DNA from: Aerococcaceae bacterium zg-1292
Lineage (GTDB): Bacteria > Bacillota > Bacilli > Lactobacillales > Aerococcaceae
Direction of reading: 5' to 3'
Length of the DNA stretch: 64,000 nucleotides
NCBI GenBank assembly: GCA_016126655.1
Contig: CP065955.1
Coordinates: 1,409,001-1,473,000, forward strand
Shown here in pieces: positions 10,075 to 23,176 of the stretch (position 1 is its first letter; each line of letters begins with the position of its first letter). Position numbers and translations under genes: made by a program. The notes beneath the pieces were generated by a model. The model saw nothing but the letters and a program-made list of their open reading frames with translations, was not told where the DNA came from and ran no database searches.

Positions 10075-11448
10075 TTAGTTACCATTTAAACGCAATTGAT
10101 AATTATCTAATGCTTTCACAAAACGCTGAAAATCTTTAGCGAAAATATTAGCGTTATTTGGAATATAGGTCTGAAAATCCAATGTATCTGCAACGTATTC
10201 AATCAACTGCATTGACCCGATTGTTTCAATATTTGGTTGTTGCGCCACTAACAATGGTAGTTGTAAGACATCTGCTAATAGTTGGCACAGTGCTATATTT
10301 TGTGTCAAACCACCCGTCAACGCAATTTGGTCAAAGCTGACAAGGGACTGTAAATTTCGTACATTGACTTTAATATTAAATAATACACCAATAATCATTG
10401 AAAATACTTCTTGTTCTGTCGTCCATTGTTCTACCAACGGTATCAATTGTTCCTGAGCGCCATCCTGCCATATTGGCGCCCGCTCACCATAAACATAAGG
10501 TAAAAATATGAGACTAATACTTGGTCGCTGCTGGATTAATTCCGTGATTGCTGACCAATTCAACTGATATTTTTGTCGAATCCACTCCAAAACATTGCCG
10601 GCATTATTACTTGGTAGTCCAACAATATATTGCGTCTCGTCCACTGAATAAGCAAAATTTTGTATTATCGTATCCAGTTGAACCGCTCGTGTCAATACAC
10701 GTACCGCATGACTCGTCCCTAATGACAAGACAGCTGTATTTTCCAGTACGCTATAAGCACCATTTGAGGATACGCCATCACTAAACCCTGCAAATACATG
10801 ACAATCTTGATACCTTTTGCATGGGAAAGCCTCACGTCCTTGTACAATCGTCGGTAATTGATTTTCGGTCAAACCAATAGTTTGCAACAGCGACGTTTCC
10901 CATGACAAAGTCTGGTAATTCATCAGTCCACTACTAGCGGCACAAGATACATCAATCATCCATTGATTGGTTAAATGATACAACAATAAATCTTTAATGG
11001 AAGCAACTTTACCTTTAAACTGATGACCAAGCAGCGACTGCAACTTATAATAGGGATTCATAATATGTGCCGGCGTGCCGGTTAATAGATAAGTTGCTGC
11101 TTGTTGCTCTTTAGGAATCGCCGCCAAAACATCTGCACCTGTGCGGTCCGCCCATGTATAAATGTCACTCAAAGGCTGTAATTGGGTATCAACCAAAATC
11201 ACACTGTGCATCGCACACGTTAAGATAATATCAAACGACTGTAACTGATAGCGTTCAACAAGTTGTTGAATTAATGAATCAAAGGCTGACAATAATTCTT
11301 GCCAAGACATTTGATAATGCTGACTATCAATCCGGTGATGTACATAAGTGTAATCAACAGTATCGATGACCGTTCTATCGTTCAAATACGTTGCTTTTAA
11401 GTTGGTTGTCCCAATATCGACACTAATGATGGATGGCTTCAGATTCAT
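10075..11448 (-). CDS. gntK: FGGY-family sugar kinase, probably gluconate kinase
   Basis: This 457-residue protein has the FGGY carbohydrate kinase layout. It shows an N-terminal ATPase motif ISVDIGTTNLKATYL, a TWADRTGADVL segment, SSGLMNYQTLSWETSLL, and the C-terminal ALTGGLTQNIALCQLLADVL nucleotide-binding motif. The family phosphorylates gluconate, xylulose, glycerol or similar polyols. The adjacent 6-phosphogluconate dehydrogenase makes D-gluconate the best substrate guess, giving 6-phosphogluconate. The ATG at 11448 follows TTGGAGG and overlaps the dehydrogenase gene by 26 bases, so the two are probably translationally coupled. Xylulokinase is the main alternative. Confidence 0.8.
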   Translation of the reverse strand: MNLKPSIISVDIGTTNLKATYLNDRTVIDTVDYTYVHHRIDSQHYQMSWQELLSAFDSLIQQLVERYQLQSFDIILTCAMHSVILVDTQLQPLSDIYTWADRTGADVLAAIPKEQQAATYLLTGTPAHIMNPYYKLQSLLGHQFKGKVASIKDLLLYHLTNQWMIDVSCAASSGLMNYQTLSWETSLLQTIGLTENQLPTIVQGREAFPCKRYQDCHVFAGFSDGVSSNGAYSVLENTAVLSLGTSHAVRVLTRAVQLDTIIQNFAYSVDETQYIVGLPSNNAGNVLEWIRQKYQLNWSAITELIQQRPSISLIFLPYVYGERAPIWQDGAQEQLIPLVEQWTTEQEVFSMIIGVLFNIKVNVRNLQSLVSFDQIALTGGLTQNIALCQLLADVLQLPLLVAQQPNIETIGSMQLIEYVADTLDFQTYIPNNANIFAKDFQRFVKALDNYQLRLNGN

Positions 11449-12328
11449 TGTGGCCTCCAAAATTATAACGCATAGCTGATAACGCACGATGTCCTAATTT
11501 ATCTTGAATATGTGTAGAATTTCGTTCATTCAAAGCTTGATAAATTACAGGTACCGGAACAGATGAATCAATTGCTTCTTTTACCATCCAATTTGCTTCT
11601 CCGGAAGCATATACTTTTTCACTAAATTCTTTCAAACTAACATCTTTATTTAATTCTTGGAAGATATTATTCATTAATGATGAACTAATTATTGAGCCAT
11701 GAGCCCAATTTTTTGTTACTGTAGCCAAATTATATGAGTAGTTATTTTGTGAGGATAATAGTTGTAACCCTTCTGCTATTGACTGCATCATTCCGTATTC
11801 GATCCCATTATGAACCATCTTTAAATAATGACCACTTCCAACTTTTTCATAGAACTCAAAGCCATCAGTAACACATAATTTTCTAAGTAATTTATGGATT
11901 TTTATATCTTCGTCTGTTGAATTACCTAACATCATACAAGCGCCATTAAGTGCTCCAAACATACCACCAGAAAGACCACAATCCATATACTTAATACCAT
12001 TCTTTTCTAGTACTTTAGCATTTTGTTGAGAGGTTTTAAAATATGAATTTGAAAAATCAATGACAATATCTCCAGCTGCTAAATAATCAACTAACGATGA
12101 AATCATCTGATTTGTCACTGCTCCACTCGGTAATAATAGCATCACTAAATGTTGTTTCTCTGCTTCAAACAAATGTTCCAATTTTTCAACCAAAACGAAA
12201 TTATCATTTGTGTAACCATTAACTCTTTTTAAATCAATATCATACCCATACACATATTCATTATTTCTATTCAAATTTTTGACAAGATTCAATCCCATTT
12301 TGCCTAACCCAATAACTATATTTTTCAT
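11423..12328 (-). CDS. 6-phosphogluconate dehydrogenase, short YqeC/GntZ-type
   Basis: This 301-residue enzyme of the 6-phosphogluconate/beta-hydroxyacid dehydrogenase family oxidatively decarboxylates 6-phosphogluconate to ribulose 5-phosphate. The Rossmann motif GLGKMGLNL opens the protein. The substrate loop CGLSGG and the catalytic HYLKMVHNGIEYG (Lys, His, Asn, Glu, Tyr) are intact. The size is that of the short, typically NAD-linked form rather than the long pentose-phosphate form. One oddity is that the usual DGGNS motif reads DFSNS here. It lies between the phospho-beta-glucosidase and kinase genes in the PTS operon. Confidence 0.9.
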   Translation of the reverse strand: MKNIVIGLGKMGLNLVKNLNRNNEYVYGYDIDLKRVNGYTNDNFVLVEKLEHLFEAEKQHLVMLLLPSGAVTNQMISSLVDYLAAGDIVIDFSNSYFKTSQQNAKVLEKNGIKYMDCGLSGGMFGALNGACMMLGNSTDEDIKIHKLLRKLCVTDGFEFYEKVGSGHYLKMVHNGIEYGMMQSIAEGLQLLSSQNNYSYNLATVTKNWAHGSIISSSLMNNIFQELNKDVSLKEFSEKVYASGEANWMVKEAIDSSVPVPVIYQALNERNSTHIQDKLGHRALSAMRYNFGGHNESEAIHH

Positions 12329-12379
12329 TTTATCCTCCTAAAAAAGTCATCTACAGTATTTCTATATAAACTTTTTTAA

Positions 12380-14127
<1,748 letters not shown>

Positions 14128-14135
14128 CTTGCTAC

Positions 14136-14456
14136 CTACTCAACATTCATTAATGTTTTAGCATAATCTAAAACATTTTTTCCATTCATCGTTCCATAAT
14201 CTTGTGGCTTAATCACACTAATTGGAATATCCAATCCAACTAATTCTTTATTATAAGTAGATTCTAGATATCTAACTTGAGGACCTAATAATATGACATC
14301 CGTTTTGTTTTCTTTCACATAGTTTAATGCTTCTGTTGACCCTATCGCGCGGATGTCATAAGATAGTCCTTCTTTTTGAGCTTCTTCTTTCATTTTTGCT
14401 ACTAACATACTAGTACTCATACCGGCAGAACAAACTAATACGATATTTTTTTCCAT
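14136..14456 (-). CDS. PTS lactose/cellobiose-type IIB component
   Basis: This 106-residue protein has the IIB phosphotyrosine-phosphatase-like fold. The phosphorylated cysteine is Cys9 in IVLVCSAGMSTSMLV, the classical P-loop-like motif. It passes phosphate from IIA to the sugar bound by IIC. Length is normal. It lies 12 bases from the IIC gene. Confidence 0.95.
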   Translation of the reverse strand: MEKNIVLVCSAGMSTSMLVAKMKEEAQKEGLSYDIRAIGSTEALNYVKENKTDVILLGPQVRYLESTYNKELVGLDIPISVIKPQDYGTMNGKNVLDYAKTLMNVE

Positions 14457-14468
14457 AATTTTTCACTC

Positions 14469-15782
14469 CTAAACTTTTTTATCTTGAATAACTGAACGGT
14501 TTGCTAATTGCACAAAAGGCAAATAAATTAATACTGACAAAATAATACAGAACAACTGAGTTATCACAGCACCTAAATTCCCTGCTGTTGCTATATATGC
14601 ATTAATTAACGCTGGAACTGGCCATGGAACCATCACAACTGCTTTTGCTGCGAAACCAAGTGATGTCGCAAAATAACCAATAGTTCCTGTTATTAAAGGT
14701 GTAAGAATAAACGGAATTGCTAATATTGGATTTAACATAATTGGTAAGCCATAAATTAATGGTTCATTGATATTAAAAATACCAGGAACAAAAGATAATT
14801 TTGCAATTTCACGATAATCTTCTCTTTTGGACACTAAGAAAATAGCAATTAATAATCCTAATGTACCACCTGATCCACCATATACCATAAAAATATCCCA
14901 AAATGGCATATTTATAATATTTGGCACTGCATCTCCAGCTTCAAATGCGACTGTATTCACAGCAATAGCTGATAGTAATAATGGCTCACGTATCGGTTTA
15001 ATCATCTGCATTCCGTGGATACCAATCACCCAAAAGATTTGAGCAATTAACATTAATAATAATATACCTGGTAAACCTTGAATTAAACCTTCAAGCGGTT
15101 TTTGAACAAGTGAATAAATGATATCATATGCGTATAAACCAGTTGATGCTTTAATCGTAAATCCGATAACTGCCATTATAAGTACTGTGATAACTGTTGG
15201 AACTAATCTTGAAAAACTATCCGATACAGTCTGAGGGACTGTTCCGGGCAATTTAATTTTTAATTTATCCTGTTCCCCTAACCAAGTAAATAATTCGATG
15301 GAAATCACAGCTGCTAACATCCCTAAGAATAATCCCTTTGGATCAGAATACTGACGAGCTAATACATTTGTAATAGTAAAAGCTTGTTCTTGTCCTTCTG
15401 GTAAATACTCCGTGAACGTTGGATTTAATGTCAAATATGACATTAAGGCAACTACCCCAGGAAAGACGCCATTTATTTTATTTAGTTTTGCAACTTCAAT
15501 ACCTAATAGAAACACAACATAAATCGTCAAGAAATTCATTGTAAAATAGTTAATTGTTTGACTGATAGGCTTAAGTTGCTCTAAAAATGACAATGCAGAA
15601 ATCTGTGCTAAACCATTTGTTGAGTCAAAAACAACCGAAGAAAACAAAGTGGCAAAAGCGCCAGTAATAATTACTGGTAATAGTGCTGCAAATGTATTTT
15701 TAATTGCGATTATGTACTTTTGGTTGTTTATTTTTTCAGCAACTTTATTTAATACACTTACTGATTTATCAAAAAAACTCAT
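14469..15782 (-). CDS. PTS lactose/cellobiose/lichenan-type IIC permease
   Basis: This 437-residue membrane protein has about ten hydrophobic segments and forms the sugar channel. Family features are the N-terminal LPVIITGAFATLF, the conserved central GIHGMQMIKPI motif and FNINEPLIYGLPIMLNP, where the Asn-Glu pair contacts the sugar. Family membership is clear, but which beta-glucoside it carries cannot be read from sequence. It follows the regulator gene by 17 bases. Confidence 0.95.
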   Translation of the reverse strand: MSFFDKSVSVLNKVAEKINNQKYIIAIKNTFAALLPVIITGAFATLFSSVVFDSTNGLAQISALSFLEQLKPISQTINYFTMNFLTIYVVFLLGIEVAKLNKINGVFPGVVALMSYLTLNPTFTEYLPEGQEQAFTITNVLARQYSDPKGLFLGMLAAVISIELFTWLGEQDKLKIKLPGTVPQTVSDSFSRLVPTVITVLIMAVIGFTIKASTGLYAYDIIYSLVQKPLEGLIQGLPGILLLMLIAQIFWVIGIHGMQMIKPIREPLLLSAIAVNTVAFEAGDAVPNIINMPFWDIFMVYGGSGGTLGLLIAIFLVSKREDYREIAKLSFVPGIFNINEPLIYGLPIMLNPILAIPFILTPLITGTIGYFATSLGFAAKAVVMVPWPVPALINAYIATAGNLGAVITQLFCIILSVLIYLPFVQLANRSVIQDKKV

Positions 15783-15799
15783 TTTAATTCTCCTTACTT

Positions 15800-17743
15800 T
15801 TATAAATATTCAAATATCTTTTTCAATTGATATAAACTCGGTTTTGCAGTAAATTGTAAAATCAAATCTTCATTAAGAATAAAATTTGATATTTTATCAA
15901 CAATATTAGAAAAATATTCAGCACTAAATTTTGATGGCGATAACAGAATAATCAACTTTACTCTCTTATTGTCCCAATCTAAACCGTTAGGTAAATATGC
16001 CATTGCGATTTCTGAACTGTTTGCAATTGGGACTGCTGGATGAGGGACTGCACAAATATCACTAAACAGAACACTCCCAATTTTTTCCCTAGAATTAATT
16101 TGGGCTATCATCGTTTGATAAAAAAGTTCATTTGTGGATTCACTTAGACTTTTTACCAGCAATCCGATGACATAATCTTTGGCTAGATTATTTTGCTCGA
16201 GAACAAAAAATCTTCGGTTGTCAAAAAAATAATCAAATTCATTTTCCGCATTGATATTGACTCTCTTGGTATTTTCACCTCGTTTTTCTTTATTTCCGAT
16301 ATTAATGTATTTTCTTATTTGTTCGACATCACTTTCTGATAATAATGGTGAAACAATAAGTACTGGTACATTAAAAAATCTATTGGAAATATCAATGGTA
16401 CTTACTATCAAATCAATGCCTTCTAAATTATTTTCTTTTAACTGATAATAACTTATAACTTCAATGATATTAATATCATTAGATAATTCTTTTTCTAATC
16501 TACTTTTTAGCATTCTTGAACTCCCAATTCCAGTTGAACAGATAACTAGCACATTCATTAATTTAGAATGCGAACTTCGTTCAATTGATGCTAAAATATG
16601 CAATACTATAAAGCCCCATTCATTTTCATCGAGACTTAATGTTTTAAAGTAATCAACTAAATTAAAAGAATCCATAATTACTTGATATTCATAACTGTAT
16701 TTATTTTTAATTTCAGATAATAATGGATTGGGTAAAATGATTCCTTGTTTTACTCGCGCTTCCAGTGGTAATATATGTTGTAGTAAATTATTAACTAAAG
16801 TTGTATCAATTTCAAAATCAATAGTTGTCTTTACTATCATCAAAGCTTCGTAAATAGCATTTCGTATTGATATATTTTCGTTTTCTGATATATCGTTTAT
16901 TATATTCGTTCTGGACTGCAAATAATTGGCAATAAAATAGATTTCACTATTTGGAAAATCTGTATCAATGATATAAGAAATTCTATCGGTAATTCGCTTT
17001 GTTATTTCTAACAGTGAAGAATCTATTTGATTTATCACTAAATCATCACTCAAAATAAATCCATCGATCAATCGCTTAATGGAAAGTTGTATATGATTCG
17101 CTAAGTTTTGGATGACTAAGTCTGAAATTTTAACTTTAGCATCCCTAAATTCTTCAATTAAAATAATTAGTAATGACTCATATGGAATGAATCCACTAAA
17201 ATTTGAAATGATTGACTGATAATAATGCTCAGATGTCATAATACTCTGAATCAGAAAGCGTCTTTTTTCTAGTTCATCTCCATAGATTTTTATATTTGAT
17301 TGACTATCAATTTCAATTTTCAAATCATAATTGTCAATTTTACTTTTTATTGCGTTAATTGAATTAAGAATTGTGCTGCGACTAACATAGAGTTCATTCA
17401 TCAATCTATCCGTAGTCACTTCCTCGTTCTCCAATAAAATTCTACTGATTATATATTGCTCTCGTTCATTTGGAATATTTAAAGAAAAATTTTGCTCTAG
17501 TGAATAGATCATTTGATTAAATTTTATTCGGTCAAAAATTTCTAAAAGATAACCCTCTCCTCTTCTCATAATCAATGTTGCTCCATAATCTTTTATTTTC
17601 CCTTGAATAGTTTTTAAATATTTCCGAATTGTTTTGTCTGACTTTTTAAATAATTGACTGAGTTGGCGACTCGTCACAATTTTTTTCGGATTTTCTGCAA
17701 AATATAAGATTAAGGTTTTCTCCATTTCAGTCATGGAAAACAC
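15800..17743 (-). CDS. LicR/MtlR-type PRD transcriptional activator of the PTS operon
   Basis: This 647-residue regulator has, in order, an N-terminal helix-turn-helix (about 10-60), a second Mga/HTH-type domain (about 85-140) and two PTS regulation domains. The first PRD has ANHIQLSIKR; the second has LLQHILPLEARVKQG and IVLHILASIER. A IIB-like domain with Cys in CSTGIGSSRML and a C-terminal fructose-type IIA domain with CAVPHPAVPIAN follow. Phosphorylation of these histidines and the cysteine by HPr and IIB normally sets activity. The start is a GTG at 17743, served by AGGAGG 9 bases upstream; the next ATG is too far from that site. It is the first gene of the operon, and two cre-like sites lie upstream. 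Confidence 0.92.
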   Translation of the reverse strand: MFSMTEMEKTLILYFAENPKKIVTSRQLSQLFKKSDKTIRKYLKTIQGKIKDYGATLIMRRGEGYLLEIFDRIKFNQMIYSLEQNFSLNIPNEREQYIISRILLENEEVTTDRLMNELYVSRSTILNSINAIKSKIDNYDLKIEIDSQSNIKIYGDELEKRRFLIQSIMTSEHYYQSIISNFSGFIPYESLLIILIEEFRDAKVKISDLVIQNLANHIQLSIKRLIDGFILSDDLVINQIDSSLLEITKRITDRISYIIDTDFPNSEIYFIANYLQSRTNIINDISENENISIRNAIYEALMIVKTTIDFEIDTTLVNNLLQHILPLEARVKQGIILPNPLLSEIKNKYSYEYQVIMDSFNLVDYFKTLSLDENEWGFIVLHILASIERSSHSKLMNVLVICSTGIGSSRMLKSRLEKELSNDINIIEVISYYQLKENNLEGIDLIVSTIDISNRFFNVPVLIVSPLLSESDVEQIRKYINIGNKEKRGENTKRVNINAENEFDYFFDNRRFFVLEQNNLAKDYVIGLLVKSLSESTNELFYQTMIAQINSREKIGSVLFSDICAVPHPAVPIANSSEIAMAYLPNGLDWDNKRVKLIILLSPSKFSAEYFSNIVDKISNFILNEDLILQFTAKPSLYQLKKIFEYL

Positions 17744-17782: not shown

Positions 17783-17822
17783 AGATAACGTTTTCTCAGT
17801 ATAGATGATTTAGCGTTTTCAT
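17783..17822 (-). promoter_or_regulatory. Two cre-like catabolite sites upstream of the PTS operon
   Basis: On the minus strand, TGAGAAAACGTTATCT (17783-17798) and ATGAAAACGCTAAA (17809-17822) both resemble the CcpA cre consensus around a central CG. They lie 40-80 bases before the activator start. I could not identify a good -35/-10 pair here. Confidence 0.5.
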
Positions 17823-17852
17823 GTTCCGCTAAGCAAAGGAATGTTATTAATT

Positions 17853-19561: not shown

Positions 19562-20428
19562 TTAACCTTTAACCGCACCGGATACGCCTTCTACATAGAA
19601 TTTTTGCATATAGATAAACAATGCGGCAATCGGTAAGGATACAACGACTGCTCCAGCAGCAAATGCTGTATACCATTGATGAATATATTCTTTTTGTAAC
19701 ATATTCCACAAACCAATTGCTACAGTAAATTGGTCACTATTAGCACGGATTAAAACTTTTGCAAAGATAAAGTCAACCCAAGGACCCATAAAGCTTGTCA
19801 ATACTGTATAAATAATAATCGGTTTACTCAATGGAATCGTAATTTTTGTGAAAATTTGCCATTGATTTGCACCATCAATAGTAGCTGCTTCATCAATTGA
19901 ACGTGGCACAGTATCAAAGTATCCCTTAGCAATTTGAAAACCTAACCCAGCACCGGCACTATACACCATAATTAGCGCAATACGTACCATTTGCCCTTCT
20001 GTCAAACCTAATGTTTTCAAGATATAGTATTGTGCAATCATCGCCATAAATCCTGGGAATAATCCTAAAATCATAGCAAGGTTCATGTACGGTTTACGGA
20101 AATTAAAACGTAAACGAGACAATGAATAGGACACACTCAACACAAAAAATGTTGATACAATACATGTAAAAATCGCAATGATTAATGTGTTAGTAAACAT
20201 TTTCGGGAAGTTCAATACACTATGATCCGTAAACAACTTAGTATAGTTAGCTAAGGTATAGGTTTTCGGGAAGAAACTATTCACATAAGAACCAGGTTCG
20301 CCACGAAAACTCGTCAATACAATCCATACAATCGGCAATATCCAAATAAATGAAAGCACCGCCAATAATAAATGAATCAGCCAATTTGTAATTTTTCTAC
20401 GCATTCTTGCACTATTCGTTATTTTCAT
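19562..20428 (-). CDS. malG: Maltodextrin ABC transporter permease MalG-like
   Basis: This 288-residue inner-membrane permease has six hydrophobic segments. The EAA loop motif that docks the ATPase is seen at about 185-205 (SIDEAATIDGANQWQIFTKI, then PLSKP). The C-terminus YMQKFYVEGVSGAVKG is typical of MalG/MdxG proteins. It imports maltose and maltodextrins with MalF and the binding protein. Its start codon overlaps the malF stop by one base. No ATPase gene is in the operon, so a shared MsmK/MalK-type ATPase elsewhere must energise it. Confidence 0.94.
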   Translation of the reverse strand: MKITNSARMRRKITNWLIHLLLAVLSFIWILPIVWIVLTSFRGEPGSYVNSFFPKTYTLANYTKLFTDHSVLNFPKMFTNTLIIAIFTCIVSTFFVLSVSYSLSRLRFNFRKPYMNLAMILGLFPGFMAMIAQYYILKTLGLTEGQMVRIALIMVYSAGAGLGFQIAKGYFDTVPRSIDEAATIDGANQWQIFTKITIPLSKPIIIYTVLTSFMGPWVDFIFAKVLIRANSDQFTVAIGLWNMLQKEYIHQWYTAFAAGAVVVSLPIAALFIYMQKFYVEGVSGAVKG

Positions 20429-21771
20429 TACATAAACGCCTCCTCATTTTTGTATGATTTACTATTACGATATGTTACTAATGTAATTACAGTTAAGATA
20501 ACAAATGTTAAGATACCGATAACAGCACCTAAGTTGTAGTATTGTTGATCGACTGTTAATTTGTATAACCATGTAACTAATAAGTCTGTTTGACCAGCAG
20601 TATCACCAACATAAGTTGGGCCACCACCTGATAATAAGTAAATAACGTTAAAGTTGTTAATATTTCCTACAAACGTTGTGATTAAGTAAGGGGTTGTCAC
20701 GAACAACATATATGGTAACGTTATTTTAAAGAAGATTTTTACAGGTCCAGCACCATCCATACGCGCTGCTTCGTATAATTCTTCTGGAATATTTTTCAAA
20801 ATACCTGTTACTTGTAACATTGTATACGGAATACCAATCCAAATATTGATTACAATGATAGTAATACGTGCCCACATGGCATTAGTTAAAAATGGTAATG
20901 GTCCGTTAATAAGTCCTGCATTTTGTAAAAGAACATTAATCGCGCCTTGTGGTTGTAACATTGTTCTCATAATTAATAAAGATACGAATTGAGGTACGGC
21001 AATTGATAATACAAAACAAAAACGCCATAATCCTTTTACTTTGGTATCTTTACGGTTGATAACCATTGCGAGCATCATACCAAGGAAGTAGTTGATAAAG
21101 GTTGCAAAAAATGCCCAAATGATGGTCCATTGTAATACGCCCCAGAATTGCTTACCAATATTTCCTTTTAAGTTTAATACACGGAAAAAGTTTGTTAACC
21201 CATTCCAGTCAAATAATATGAGTTGATTACCTTCTTTAGAATACGTCGTAAATGCCATTGAAATCATAAAAATAAGTGGCACAACGTTGAATGCTAAAAT
21301 ACCAAGCATCGGTAATGACATTAATGTCACGTGTAATTTTTCATTAAACAATGAATTAATATCTTCACGCAAGTTATTAATTGGTTTACCTGCTTGTTGA
21401 CGTAGTTGTAAACGATACGCATGTTTTAACTGCGCAATCCATAACCCAATAATTGCTACAATAATAAATAAGGTAACGACACCCATTAATAAAATAATTA
21501 ATGAATTATCTCCTGCTTGATATTCATAGATTTGCTTAGCTTCATTCCAAACTTTGACTTGTTCGGATTCACCTAATGCTGGTAGCGCGCGTAAATTATT
21601 TATACCTGTCGTCAACATAAAATAGATAAATGTCAGTTGCAAGAATAGTATTCCAATCCCTTTTGCAACTTGATGACGTTTAATATGACCGATACCCATT
21701 ATCAGTGCCGACAAACGTGTCCAACCATCTCCATTAGCTAAAACGCGAATCAATGATGTTTTGTTCGACAT
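20428..21771 (-). CDS. malF: Maltodextrin ABC transporter permease MalF-like
   Basis: This 447-residue permease is longer than simple sugar permeases. Its N-terminal extension has two extra hydrophobic segments (about 36-58 and 88-112) and a linker, as in streptococcal MalC and Bacillus MdxF. The EAA loop ELYEAARMDGAGPVKIFFKI and the following ITLPYM identify the ATPase contact. It pairs with the downstream MalG-like permease. The ATG at 21771 follows AAAGGAG. Confidence 0.94.
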   Translation of the reverse strand: MSNKTSLIRVLANGDGWTRLSALIMGIGHIKRHQVAKGIGILFLQLTFIYFMLTTGINNLRALPALGESEQVKVWNEAKQIYEYQAGDNSLIILLMGVVTLFIIVAIIGLWIAQLKHAYRLQLRQQAGKPINNLREDINSLFNEKLHVTLMSLPMLGILAFNVVPLIFMISMAFTTYSKEGNQLILFDWNGLTNFFRVLNLKGNIGKQFWGVLQWTIIWAFFATFINYFLGMMLAMVINRKDTKVKGLWRFCFVLSIAVPQFVSLLIMRTMLQPQGAINVLLQNAGLINGPLPFLTNAMWARITIIVINIWIGIPYTMLQVTGILKNIPEELYEAARMDGAGPVKIFFKITLPYMLFVTTPYLITTFVGNINNFNVIYLLSGGGPTYVGDTAGQTDLLVTWLYKLTVDQQYYNLGAVIGILTFVILTVITLVTYRNSKSYKNEEAFM

Positions 21772-21852
21772 TTTGGTTGCTCCTTTCTTGTAAATCTACG
21801 TAAAGGGAGAGAGCATTTGCTCACTCCCTTTTGTTTGCAGATTTAATGATTA

Positions 21853-23070
21853 TTATTCAACTGCGCTTGAATTCATTGCTTTATTTGTTGATTCTGTTAC
21901 TTCTGCTGCATTTTCATGTGTCACTTCACCAGCAACAATACGTTCACCTAATGTTTGAGCTGGAGTCCAGTAGTTAGACATTGCTGGTACTAATGGTTGT
22001 ACCACTGAAGCAAATTCCATTGCATCTGCTTGTGCTTTAGCTAATGGGTTTTCACTTACATCAATGTTTGTATCTGTTGGAATGATATTACGTGAATCAT
22101 AGTGTGCTTGTTGAGCTTCTTTACTTCCTAAAAATGCAGCGAATGCAACAGCTACATCAGGGTTTTTAGAGTTAGGGTTAACACCAATCGCTTTTGAACC
22201 AGCGAATGCTTTTAATTGTTTTTCTTCACCATTTAATGTGTAAGAAGGAGCAGCAGCAATACCGACATTATCTTTACCTAATGCTTTTACAACGTTGTCA
22301 TAGTCCCAAGTACCTGAGAACATTGCATTAATTGAACCATCTGCTAAACCAGCGATACCTGCACCATCCACGTCGTTGCGGAAGTTTTTGTTTTTCACTA
22401 AATCTACTAAATATTTAGTAACATCTGTACCTTTGTCACCTGACCAGTCAATACCAGCAGATTCGTCAGTACCATCACCAAATATTTTATTTCCGTTTGC
22501 TGCGTAGAATGAAGCAATATACCATGAGTTAGATAATGGGAATGATACAACCCCTTTTTCTAACATTTTATCTAAGCTCTTCACATCTTCTTCAGAGAAT
22601 ACACGTTTGTCATAGTACATGAACCAAGTGTTAGCTGTGAACGGTACACCGTAAACACCGTCTTTATAAGTAACTGTTTTAACTGTTGTTTCAGAGTTGT
22701 TTGCTTTAATTTCTTCAACTGTTTTACCACCTAATTCAGCAATCGCATTAGCCGTTAATAAATCAGGTAATTGGTCGTTAGCATACATATATACATCTGC
22801 ACCAGCAGCTGCGTCAGTCGCTAAGTTTGTTTTAGCATCTGCTTCTGGCACAACCCCATATTCAAACTTAATGTTCCATTCTGGGTGCATTTCATTGAAT
22901 TTTTCACCCATTTTTTGTAACCATTTTTCACCAGTTTGATCTTCTTGCGGCCCCCAAACAGTCAATGTAACATCTTTAGTTTCTGCAGCTTTCGCTACTG
23001 CTCCACCAAATGGTACCAATGTGCTCGCTGCTACTAAAACAGCTAAACTTTTTAACATCAATTTCTTCAT
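21853..23070 (-). CDS. malE: Maltodextrin-binding protein without a lipobox
   Basis: This 405-residue extracellular solute-binding protein of family 1 has the MalE/MdxE-like segments LTVWGPQEDQTGEKWLQKM, YGVPFTANTWFMYYDKRVF and MFSGTWDYDN. The N-terminus MKKLMLKSLAVLVAASTLVP is a Sec signal ending near AKAAET, which looks like a signal peptidase I site. Binding proteins of Gram-positive ABC importers are normally lipoproteins, yet I find no cysteine anywhere in this protein. It is either released or held by an uncleaved signal. The ATG at 23070 follows TTGGAGG and is better than the in-frame start at 23112. It is the first gene of malEFG. Confidence 0.92.
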   Translation of the reverse strand: MKKLMLKSLAVLVAASTLVPFGGAVAKAAETKDVTLTVWGPQEDQTGEKWLQKMGEKFNEMHPEWNIKFEYGVVPEADAKTNLATDAAAGADVYMYANDQLPDLLTANAIAELGGKTVEEIKANNSETTVKTVTYKDGVYGVPFTANTWFMYYDKRVFSEEDVKSLDKMLEKGVVSFPLSNSWYIASFYAANGNKIFGDGTDESAGIDWSGDKGTDVTKYLVDLVKNKNFRNDVDGAGIAGLADGSINAMFSGTWDYDNVVKALGKDNVGIAAAPSYTLNGEEKQLKAFAGSKAIGVNPNSKNPDVAVAFAAFLGSKEAQQAHYDSRNIIPTDTNIDVSENPLAKAQADAMEFASVVQPLVPAMSNYWTPAQTLGERIVAGEVTHENAAEVTESTNKAMNSSAVE

Positions 23071-23108
23071 GTTAATACCTCCAAAAAATTTTTTATTCAA
23101 AATCATTT

Positions 23109-23176
23109 GCAAACTTTTCGCATCTCCTTACGCTTTTTACGCAATTTATTTTGAAAGTTACGCAAACGATTTCTTA
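23109..23176 (-). promoter_or_regulatory. Possible MalR-type operators in the malE leader
   Basis: Two similar plus-strand motifs, GCAAACTTTTCGC (near 23109) and GCAAACGATTTC (near 23161), resemble the GCAAACGTTTGC-type operators of LacI-family maltose repressors. They lie between the malE promoter and its start. No malR gene is present in the window. Confidence 0.4.

Follow-up and report, generated by a model that had tools for sequence, protein, structure and literature searches.

A lactose/cellobiose-type PTS operon with a predicted gluconokinase and a short 6-phosphogluconate dehydrogenase: a candidate route for glucosyl-gluconate in an Aerococcaceae bacterium

INTRODUCTION

Fungal LPMOs and cellobiose dehydrogenase give rise to oxidized disaccharides (PMC4537572; PMC10003442), and maltobionic and lactobionic acids have been studied as prebiotics (PMC11922316). 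In the genome of Aerococcaceae bacterium zg-1292, a phosphotransferase system (PTS) and a GH1 glycosidase are encoded together with an FGGY-family kinase and a short 6-phosphogluconate dehydrogenase (PGDH). Which substrate would require all four? The original prediction was a glucosyl-gluconate, such as cellobionate, imported by the PTS and hydrolyzed by GH1, with conversion of the gluconate into ribulose 5-phosphate. We analyzed the locus within a window of 64,000 nucleotides (the whole stretch, positions 1,409,001 to 1,473,000 of contig CP065955.1), to which all coordinates below refer.

RESULTS AND DISCUSSION

Organization of the operon

Positions 10075–17743 contain seven intact, tightly spaced ORFs on the minus strand, in the order regulator, IIC, IIB, IIA, GH1, PGDH, and kinase. 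The gaps are 17 bp (regulator–IIC), 12 bp (IIC–IIB), 8 bp (IIB–IIA), 20 bp (IIA–GH1), and 51 bp (GH1–PGDH); the PGDH and kinase genes overlap by 26 bp with the ATG at 11448 taken as the start of the kinase (the ORF as listed begins at a GTG, 11487). All seven proteins pass the Pfam cut-off of their main domain. The gene set and the tight spacing of the original prediction are confirmed, with the families assigned by profile cut-offs; its interval takes in the regulator, which its text leaves unnamed. The same gene order is present in two further Aerococcaceae genomes (L039 and L047), so that the arrangement is more than chance. Scans for promoters and terminators gave no clear excess over shuffled sequences (41 vs. 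47.8 and 5 vs. 3.2), and near the operon there is no cre match for CcpA with one mismatch or fewer. Two cre-like stretches, at about 17786–17825, were spotted by eye only.

The regulator and the PTS components

The first gene encodes a PRD-type transcriptional regulator (15800–17743, minus strand) with two PRD domains and Mga, HTH_11, PTS_IIB (EIIB-like), and PTS_EIIA_2 (EIIA-2-like) domains (Pfam). Regulators 33%–36% identical to it occupy the same position at four other loci (L039, L047, L052, and L207).

The EIIC (14469–15782, minus strand) scores well above the lacE cut-off (TIGR00410, 351.1 vs. 236 bits). EIIB (14136–14456, minus strand; PF02302, 71 bits) has a phosphorylatable Cys in VCSAGMS and EIIA (13816–14127, minus strand; PF02255, 120 bits) a phosphorylatable His in VVHSQDH, both by reading of the sequence. 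With these residues and scores, the three components are of the lactose/cellobiose type, IIA and IIB falling below the narrower TIGR00823 and TIGR00853 cut-offs. Across 395 genomes, the window IIC has 46 matches with at least 62% identity and the next best among the matches listed is at 42%; by this gap in sequence identity, it is a distinct subfamily. Three other genomes of Globicatella (genus inferred) contain nothing that matches at the level of that subfamily or of the short PGDH, which speaks against the proposed pathway. A GH1 gene is near the IIC in 41 of the 44 tabulated loci of the subfamily: 36 of a set of 39 (35 with the distant lineage GH1b and one with a GH1 of the window type), plus the window, L039, L047, L052/L085, and L151.

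The GH1 enzyme and Lys185

The GH1 protein (12380–13795, minus strand) passes two 6-phospho-β-glucosidase cut-offs (NF007158, 675.6 vs. 639; NF007356, 632.7 vs. 623). By matching of spacing to the sites given in PMC3605045, the acid/base is E178, the nucleophile E369, and the phosphate site S426/K432/Y434; at the place where a Trp recognizes galacto configurations, there is A425. With those scores and site residues, the enzyme is a predicted 6-phospho-β-glucosidase, and the phosphate-binding residues that had been claimed for it are present. Among PDB entries, 6wgd matches its structure model (pLDDT 88.4) best, with a Z of 57.2 and an rmsd of 1.9 over 456 aligned residues.

Lys185 (codon 13241–13243, minus strand) lies seven residues after the acid/base Glu, in the β4–α4 region, on a loop that contributes to the +1 subsite. 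The position is Lys in 5/5 operon GH1s, whereas all 22 related GH1s have Ala (18) or Leu (4). In GH1b, which shares only 28% identity with the window-type lineage and accompanies the same IIC subfamily, the aligned residue is Arg (40/40). That two GH1 lineages so distant from each other, both accompanying this IIC subfamily, have a basic residue at one position of the +1 loop counts in favor of an acidic disaccharide such as glucosyl-gluconate. Against it, in E. coli AscB, an enzyme needed for growth on cellobionate, the aligned residue is Ser. At L207, a window-type PTS and GH1 (including Lys185) occur, yet no kinase or dehydrogenase adjoins them; therefore, Lys185 does not strictly track the kinase–dehydrogenase pair. 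K137, considered as a second operon-specific lysine, was dropped, as Lys is found there also in four non-operon GH1s.

The kinase and the dehydrogenase

The best NCBIfam model of the FGGY-family kinase, a predicted gluconokinase (10075–11448, minus strand; 457 amino acids from the ATG at 11448), is gntK_FGGY (TIGR01314), with a score of 184, far below the equivalog cut-off of 648.55; thus, it is not filed as a member of that family, only as working like one. The five specificity positions of FGGY kinases (taken from PMC3245297, where the GntK signatures begin Met-His) read M-H-M-D-A, as in all 24 kinases tested from the window clade and related loci (the window included) and in 8/8 sequences of the GntK equivalog. 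Six FGGY kinases of the genome pass the Pfam cut-off and M-H-M-D-A occurs only in the two operon kinases (that of the window and that of a sister locus, below): XylB has M-H-G-D-V, AraB M-H-I-D-F, RhaB A-V-F-D-L, and GlpK R-E-Y-D-F (AraB named by its position beside araA and araD, the others by the equivalog cut-offs they pass). In the tree, a 35-row clade of operon-type kinases and GntK excludes these four with a support of 93/99, just under the starred level and with long branches among the excluded rows. Signature and tree together rule out that the kinase is XylB, AraB, RhaB, or GlpK. The proposal of a gluconate kinase is supported by both, but not by the equivalog score. Some observations on the kinase speak against the reading as a glucosyl-gluconate operon. 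It also occurs solo (L040, L042, L045, and L048, among others), and the signature is shared by kinases in unrelated contexts (L056 and L057), which add no context evidence because their neighbors are purine and oxaloacetate-decarboxylase genes.

The dehydrogenase (11423–12328, minus strand) passes the cut-off for the short form (NF007161, 311.8 vs. 271 bits) and is under that of the NAD-dependent equivalog (TIGR00872, 267.5 vs. 297.2). Its SGG, KMVHNGIEY, and C-terminal FGGH align with the long Gnd of the genome; SGG, K-xx-HN-xx-EY, and the C-terminal H are what we take to be the catalytic and substrate residues of 6PGDH. Since zwf and the long Gnd are encoded elsewhere, the operon pair is not the only 6PGDH route of the genome.

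A sister locus with a GH4 enzyme

The same genome contains a second locus (L038) with, in order, an RpiR regulator, a PTS IICB of the glucose/α-glucoside family, a GH4 6-phospho-α-glucosidase, PGDH, and kinase. The series IICB–GH4–PGDH–kinase occurs in five more Aerococcaceae genomes and in five genomes of other families (L118, L125, L137, L140, and L149), the kinases of the latter falling outside the window kinase clade; the GH4s of these loci form two separate clades. PGDH adjoins GH1 or GH4 in 6/38 of the fetched loci; among their remaining ORFs, not counting those for PTS components, hydrolases, and kinases, 1/567 does so. The IICBs fit the models for α-glucoside and glucose PTS to about the same degree and pass the cut-off of neither, so that the label "α" rests mainly on GH4. 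We claim no counterpart of Lys185 in GH4: position 247 is basic in 14/14 GH4s linked to the kinase, but one of the six controls shares this feature. The sister cluster appears to handle an α-linked version of a gluconate-ended disaccharide.

Alternative substrates

The operon could be an ordinary one for cellobiose or plant β-glucosides, with a kinase and a dehydrogenase that are merely co-transcribed and salvage free gluconate entering by another route. Named members of the GH1 and IIC families act on neutral β-glucosides, a GntP-type permease is encoded elsewhere in the genome, and most of the 44 tabulated loci of the window IIC subfamily have no nearby kinase (33) or no nearby PGDH (35). 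Further, the GntR-type regulators at loci of this subfamily have a UTRA and not an FCD domain in 27/38 (Pfam), which also speaks against a glucosyl-gluconate; these statistics, like those on adjacency, ignore shared ancestry. With most loci lacking the kinase and many regulators of the UTRA type, specificity of the whole subfamily for aldobionates is not borne out. However, the kinase–dehydrogenase pair recurs behind a different PTS with GH4, both at the sister locus and outside the Aerococcaceae, and no gene of the genome's two operons matches a gluconate permease. The GntP gene belongs to a separate sugar-acid cluster, with genes for KDPG aldolase and a KDG-type kinase next to it, and Lys185 is absent from the non-operon GH1 relatives examined. 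A neutral β-glucoside as the substrate is, on balance, unlikely.

The acid unit might be other than gluconate. The kinase could, for example, phosphorylate mannonate, with epimerization to 6-phosphogluconate as the next step; or oxidized glucomannan could supply disaccharides ending in gluconate mixed with others ending in mannonate. In L151, the gene directly upstream of IIC–GH1b–PGDH–kinase is for a UxuA-type mannonate dehydratase (Pfam), and such dehydratases are found likewise at L208, L218, and L220 (BLAST), whereas the window operon, with its seven genes, has neither an epimerase nor UxuA. The kinase signature is that of GntK, but it may not separate gluconate from mannonate, its C2 epimer. 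We hold mannonate to be improbable, more so than a neutral glucoside. Import of free gluconate by the PTS, with an unrelated role for GH1, would suit the look of the kinase and dehydrogenase, but is hardly credible: such import would phosphorylate gluconate and make the kinase redundant, and the IIC is of the disaccharide lactose/cellobiose type with GH1 nearby in 41/44 loci.

A proposed pathway for β-glucosyl-gluconate

From gene content and order, family membership, specificity residues, and recurrence, we infer that the operon probably imports a β-glucosyl-gluconate, splits the product, and passes the two parts on to central metabolism. The PTS would take up an aldobionate, for example cellobionate or gentiobionate, and phosphorylate the nonreducing glucose at C6; GH1 would cleave the phosphorylated acid into glucose 6-phosphate and gluconate, and Lys185 may contribute to binding of the carboxylate in the +1 subsite. 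Gluconate would be converted into 6-phosphogluconate by the FGGY enzyme, and the short dehydrogenase would decarboxylate the latter to ribulose 5-phosphate for use in the pentose-phosphate or phosphoketolase pathway. Through its EIIA- and EIIB-like domains, the PRD regulator probably activates the operon once the substrate draws phosphate off the PTS. This core of the original prediction is supported by the kinase specificity residues, by the conserved 6PGDH residues, and by the occurrence of the pair beside a different PTS with an α-type hydrolase; by these lines, the linkage may be that of cellobionate, gentiobionate, or another disaccharide, and the acid unit gluconate or, less probably, its epimer mannonate.

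Comparison with known systems

In E. coli, growth on cellobionic acid needs the GH1 6-phospho-β-glucosidase AscB (Desai et al. 2015, PMC4403981). The scheme proposed in that paper has import with phosphorylation to CBA-P and then formation of glucose 6-phosphate and gluconate, as we propose here, with the transporter reported as unidentified in 2015. The earlier remark that a PTS route for such acids is undescribed was, therefore, too strong. The window GH1 and AscB share 51% identity (AscB having Ser in place of Lys185), and the asc genes have a β-glucoside-type IIBC (ascF) with no adjoining kinase or dehydrogenase of the window kind. Neurospora crassa likewise takes up cellobionate whole (transporter CBT-1 and cellobionic acid phosphorylase; PMC4537572); it differs by a non-PTS transporter and by phosphorolysis to glucose 1-phosphate, where a PTS and hydrolysis are proposed for the window. 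When that pathway was moved to yeast, gluconokinase was required (PMC4537572).

Operons for PTS and GH1 of the lactose/cellobiose family (e.g., L199) share IIA, IIB, IIC, GH1, and a PRD regulator with the window operon, which has in addition 6PGDH and FGGY kinase and its own IIC subfamily. The gnd–gntK–gntP operons of lactic acid bacteria (e.g., L146, with its gluconokinase split into two ORFs) also pair a short 6PGDH with an FGGY gluconokinase, but there gluconate comes via a GntP-like permease, and in the window, as proposed, via hydrolysis of the PTS substrate. Loci with an α-glucoside PTS and a GH4 6-phospho-α-glucosidase, presumably of the AglA/AglB type, have the transporter and hydrolase types of the sister locus (one such record annotates aglB).

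The 6PGDH–kinase pair is not listed in the stretches of six plasmid-borne relatives (Enterobacter, Cetobacterium, Photobacterium, Rahnella, Vagococcus, and Klebsiella), for which the gene table is incomplete. Among the matches listed for literature on cellobionate, maltobionate, lactobionate, and phospho-glucosidase/gluconokinase, a scope with few subscription journals, no title or abstract describes a dedicated aldobionate PTS operon; PTS terms have no match in PMC10239384 and PMC11922316.

Significance

We lean slightly toward a general class of aldobionate loci, repeatedly assembled in lactic-acid-type bacteria. A gluconokinase–6PGDH module would be joined to a β-type PTS and GH1 (for cellobionate- or gentiobionate-like substrates), to an α-type PTS and GH4 (maltobionate-like), and perhaps to an ABC transporter and GH42 (lactobionate-like, L129), two distant GH1 lineages of one IIC subfamily having independently gained a basic residue at one and the same position of the +1 subsite for the carboxylate. 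The locus offers a concrete set of transporter, hydrolase, kinase, and dehydrogenase for the import of oxidized disaccharides by bacteria. Where it adjoins genes for a PTS and a phospho-glycosidase, the pair of 6PGDH and FGGY kinase may serve as a genomic marker, and Lys185 is a single residue open to mutation.

Organization of the operon

The zg-1292 genome is one contig of 2.42 Mb. The window operon consists of seven intact, co-directional genes, all on the minus strand: a PRD regulator (15800-17743), PTS IIC (14469-15782), IIB (14136-14456) and IIA (13816-14127), a GH1 glycosidase (12380-13795), a short 6-phosphogluconate dehydrogenase (11423-12328) and an FGGY kinase (10075-11448, counted from ATG). 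Family searches bear out all seven names, and the anatomy given in the original prediction stands; its main inference, a PTS operon for a glucosyl-gluconate, is well supported by comparisons that were beyond its reach. One gene off the operon, at 19562-23112, occur two ORFs resembling sugar ABC permeases by eye, with a 419-aa ORF past them. The intergenic stretches of L080 and L082 repeatedly contain short ORFs, probably spurious, whose peptides resemble each other; this suggests a dispersed repeat in the zg-1292 genome.

Kinase and dehydrogenase

For the window kinase, gluconokinase is the top family model, with a score well under the equivalog cut-off; in the zg-1292 genome, no gene lies over the cut-off of either gluconokinase model. 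The nearest solved structure by sequence is 3gbt, a "gluconate kinase" (151.2 bits), followed by a glycerol kinase (56.8). The five FGGY specificity positions (PMC3245297), transferred via the zg-1292 glycerol kinase, read M-H-M-D-A. In the text of that source, the GntK signature is given by its Met-His start and GlpK by all five residues. The combination M-H-M-D-A is present in all 15 rows of the window-kinase clade (window counted), in nine related-locus kinases outside it and in 8/8 sequences of the gluconokinase equivalog GntK. The kinases of L056 and L057 occur in unrelated gene contexts, yet have M-H-M-D-A too. The signatures of the xylulo-, ribulo-, rhamnulo- and glycerol kinases of zg-1292 are unlike it (three of these names rest on equivalog cut-offs, and the ribulokinase is named from its position beside araA and araD). 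Phylogenetically, the window kinase groups with its relatives from Aerococcaceae at a support of 100/100, and this group joins the related-locus kinases and GntK in a clade (93/99), with the four other kinases outside on long branches. A kinase activity with high mannonate affinity, reported for Lactobacillus suebicus extracts (PMC6978723), is a caveat to the gluconokinase reading.

The window dehydrogenase aligns with the long Gnd of zg-1292 at SGG, KMVHNGIEY and the C-terminal FGGH, and its closest solved relatives by sequence are short 6PGDHs, such as 8ihe. Since zwf and the long Gnd are located elsewhere in the genome, the short enzyme is unlikely to be a housekeeping one.

The GH1 enzyme and its +1 subsite

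The nearest solved relative of the window GH1 by sequence is 6wgd, to which the predicted model (pLDDT 88.4) superposes with Z 57.2 and an rmsd of 1.9 over 456 residues. According to PMC3605045, the beta4-alpha4 region helps to build the +1 (aglycon) subsite. Within that region, seven residues past the acid/base Glu178, occurs Lys185. All 5 operon GH1s have Lys at this position, where 18 of 22 others have Ala and 4 have Leu; neither Lys nor Arg is found in ten non-operon rows of a second set, whose genes partly overlap the first. Lys is present also in L207, a window-type operon that lacks the dehydrogenase and kinase genes. In GH1b, a second and distant GH1 lineage that serves the same IIC subfamily, Arg aligns to Lys185 in 40/40 sequences, Klebsiella and Pantoea among them; in its solved relatives 5nav and 4b3k, a count by hand along the alignments puts Gly at this place. 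A role of Lys185 in the +1 subsite is predicted. Because E. coli AscB, needed for growth on cellobionate, has Ser at that place, a basic residue is dispensable for the activity.

Related beta-type loci

The complete gene order is found also in L039 and L047. L052/L085 has an extra IIC, IIB and a second GH1, a GH1b that shares 28% identity with the GH1 of the window; L051/L084 resembles it without the dehydrogenase. Against 395 genomes of the order, the window IIC gives 46 listed matches of at least 62% identity, the next in the list being at 42%. Three other Globicatella genomes contain no match at the level of the IIC subfamily or of the short dehydrogenase. Among 44 tabulated IIC-subfamily loci (39 plus the window, L039, L047, L052/L085 and L151), the same gene run contains a kinase in 11 (33 without) and a dehydrogenase in nine. 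The 38 GntR-family regulators near subfamily IIC genes carry an FCD (11) or UTRA (27) domain. FCD regulators often bind carboxylic acids, and a kinase is nearby in 5/10 FCD-regulator loci versus 1/27 UTRA-regulator loci (Fisher 0.003).

In L151, L208, L218 and L220, a UxuA-type mannonate dehydratase lies directly upstream of IIC-GH1b-PGDH-kinase, which hints at mannonate-ended substrates besides gluconate-ended ones. In Pantoea (L158:7521-11951) and Klebsiella (L159:8001-11614), GH1b occurs with an FCD/GntR regulator and an IIC 56% identical to that of the window; these loci are enterobacterial relatives.

The dehydrogenase-kinase pair beside other hydrolases

A second dehydrogenase-kinase pair is present in zg-1292 at C1:1981.5-1983.9 kb, within an alpha sister locus (L038:11529-17645, C1 about 1981.5-1987.6 kb). 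Upstream of the pair are an RpiR regulator, a glucose/alpha-glucoside-family PTS IICB and a GH4 with the CDMP motif. This GH4 shares 71% identity with a protein of Enterococcus gallinarum that is annotated as 6-phospho-alpha-glucosidase; for the locus, a maltobionate-like substrate is predicted. Five other Aerococcaceae loci (L043, L044, L046, L053, L054) have the same gene order, with GH4s 80-81% identical to that of L038 and IICBs of 537-552 aa. Outside Aerococcaceae, IICB-GH4-PGDH-kinase is found in L118, L125, L137, L140 and L149. As their kinases are not in the window clade and the L137 GH4 is placed in the other GH4 clade, the combination probably has more than one origin. The dehydrogenase is missing from the IICB-GH4-kinase loci of L055 and of L160, a plasmid of E. 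gallinarum. In L129 (L129:5795-14310), an FCD/GntR regulator, dehydrogenase and kinase occur with a GH42 beta-galactosidase and parts of an ABC sugar transporter, possibly a lactobionate version without PTS.

GH1 or GH4 is the immediate same-strand neighbor in 6/38 fetched dehydrogenase loci, a non-independent set selected for similarity to the window enzyme, versus 1/567 other ORFs of the same stretches with PTS, hydrolase and kinase ORFs excluded (Fisher 2.8e-7). In Ruoffia tabacinasalis (L049:9772-11366), a kinase beside an 84-aa dehydrogenase remnant looks like a decaying copy. At L079:9051-15607 in the zg-1292 genome, a GntP permease gene is grouped with those for a KDPG aldolase and a KDG-type kinase, and with two that by eye encode a dehydratase and a short-chain dehydrogenase; this is a sugar-acid cluster separate from the operon.

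Discussion

The original statement that no PTS route had been described for such acids was too strong. In Desai et al. 2015 (PMC4403981), growth of E. coli on cellobionic acid requires ascB, and phosphorylated cellobionate is drawn as an intermediate, the mechanism by which the acid enters being given there as unknown. The fungal route of Li et al. 2015 (PMC4537572) consists of a transporter and a phosphorylase, with gluconokinase added in yeast. Among the matches listed from open-licence papers, no title or abstract describes a PTS operon for such acids that carries a gluconate kinase and a dehydrogenase of its own, or an alpha counterpart.

The physiological substrate of the window operon is probably a glucosyl-gluconate; cellobionate in particular is somewhat less likely than not. 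Judging each step from families and residues, EIIA and EIIB would relay phosphate to the incoming disaccharide, which EIIC would move across the membrane with its glucose unit becoming the 6-phosphate. Cleavage by GH1 would give glucose 6-phosphate and gluconate, and gluconate would be converted by the kinase and dehydrogenase to ribulose 5-phosphate. Next to the alpha locus lies a phosphoketolase gene (C-terminal part in the fetched stretch, L038:17921-18967), whose enzyme would suit that product.
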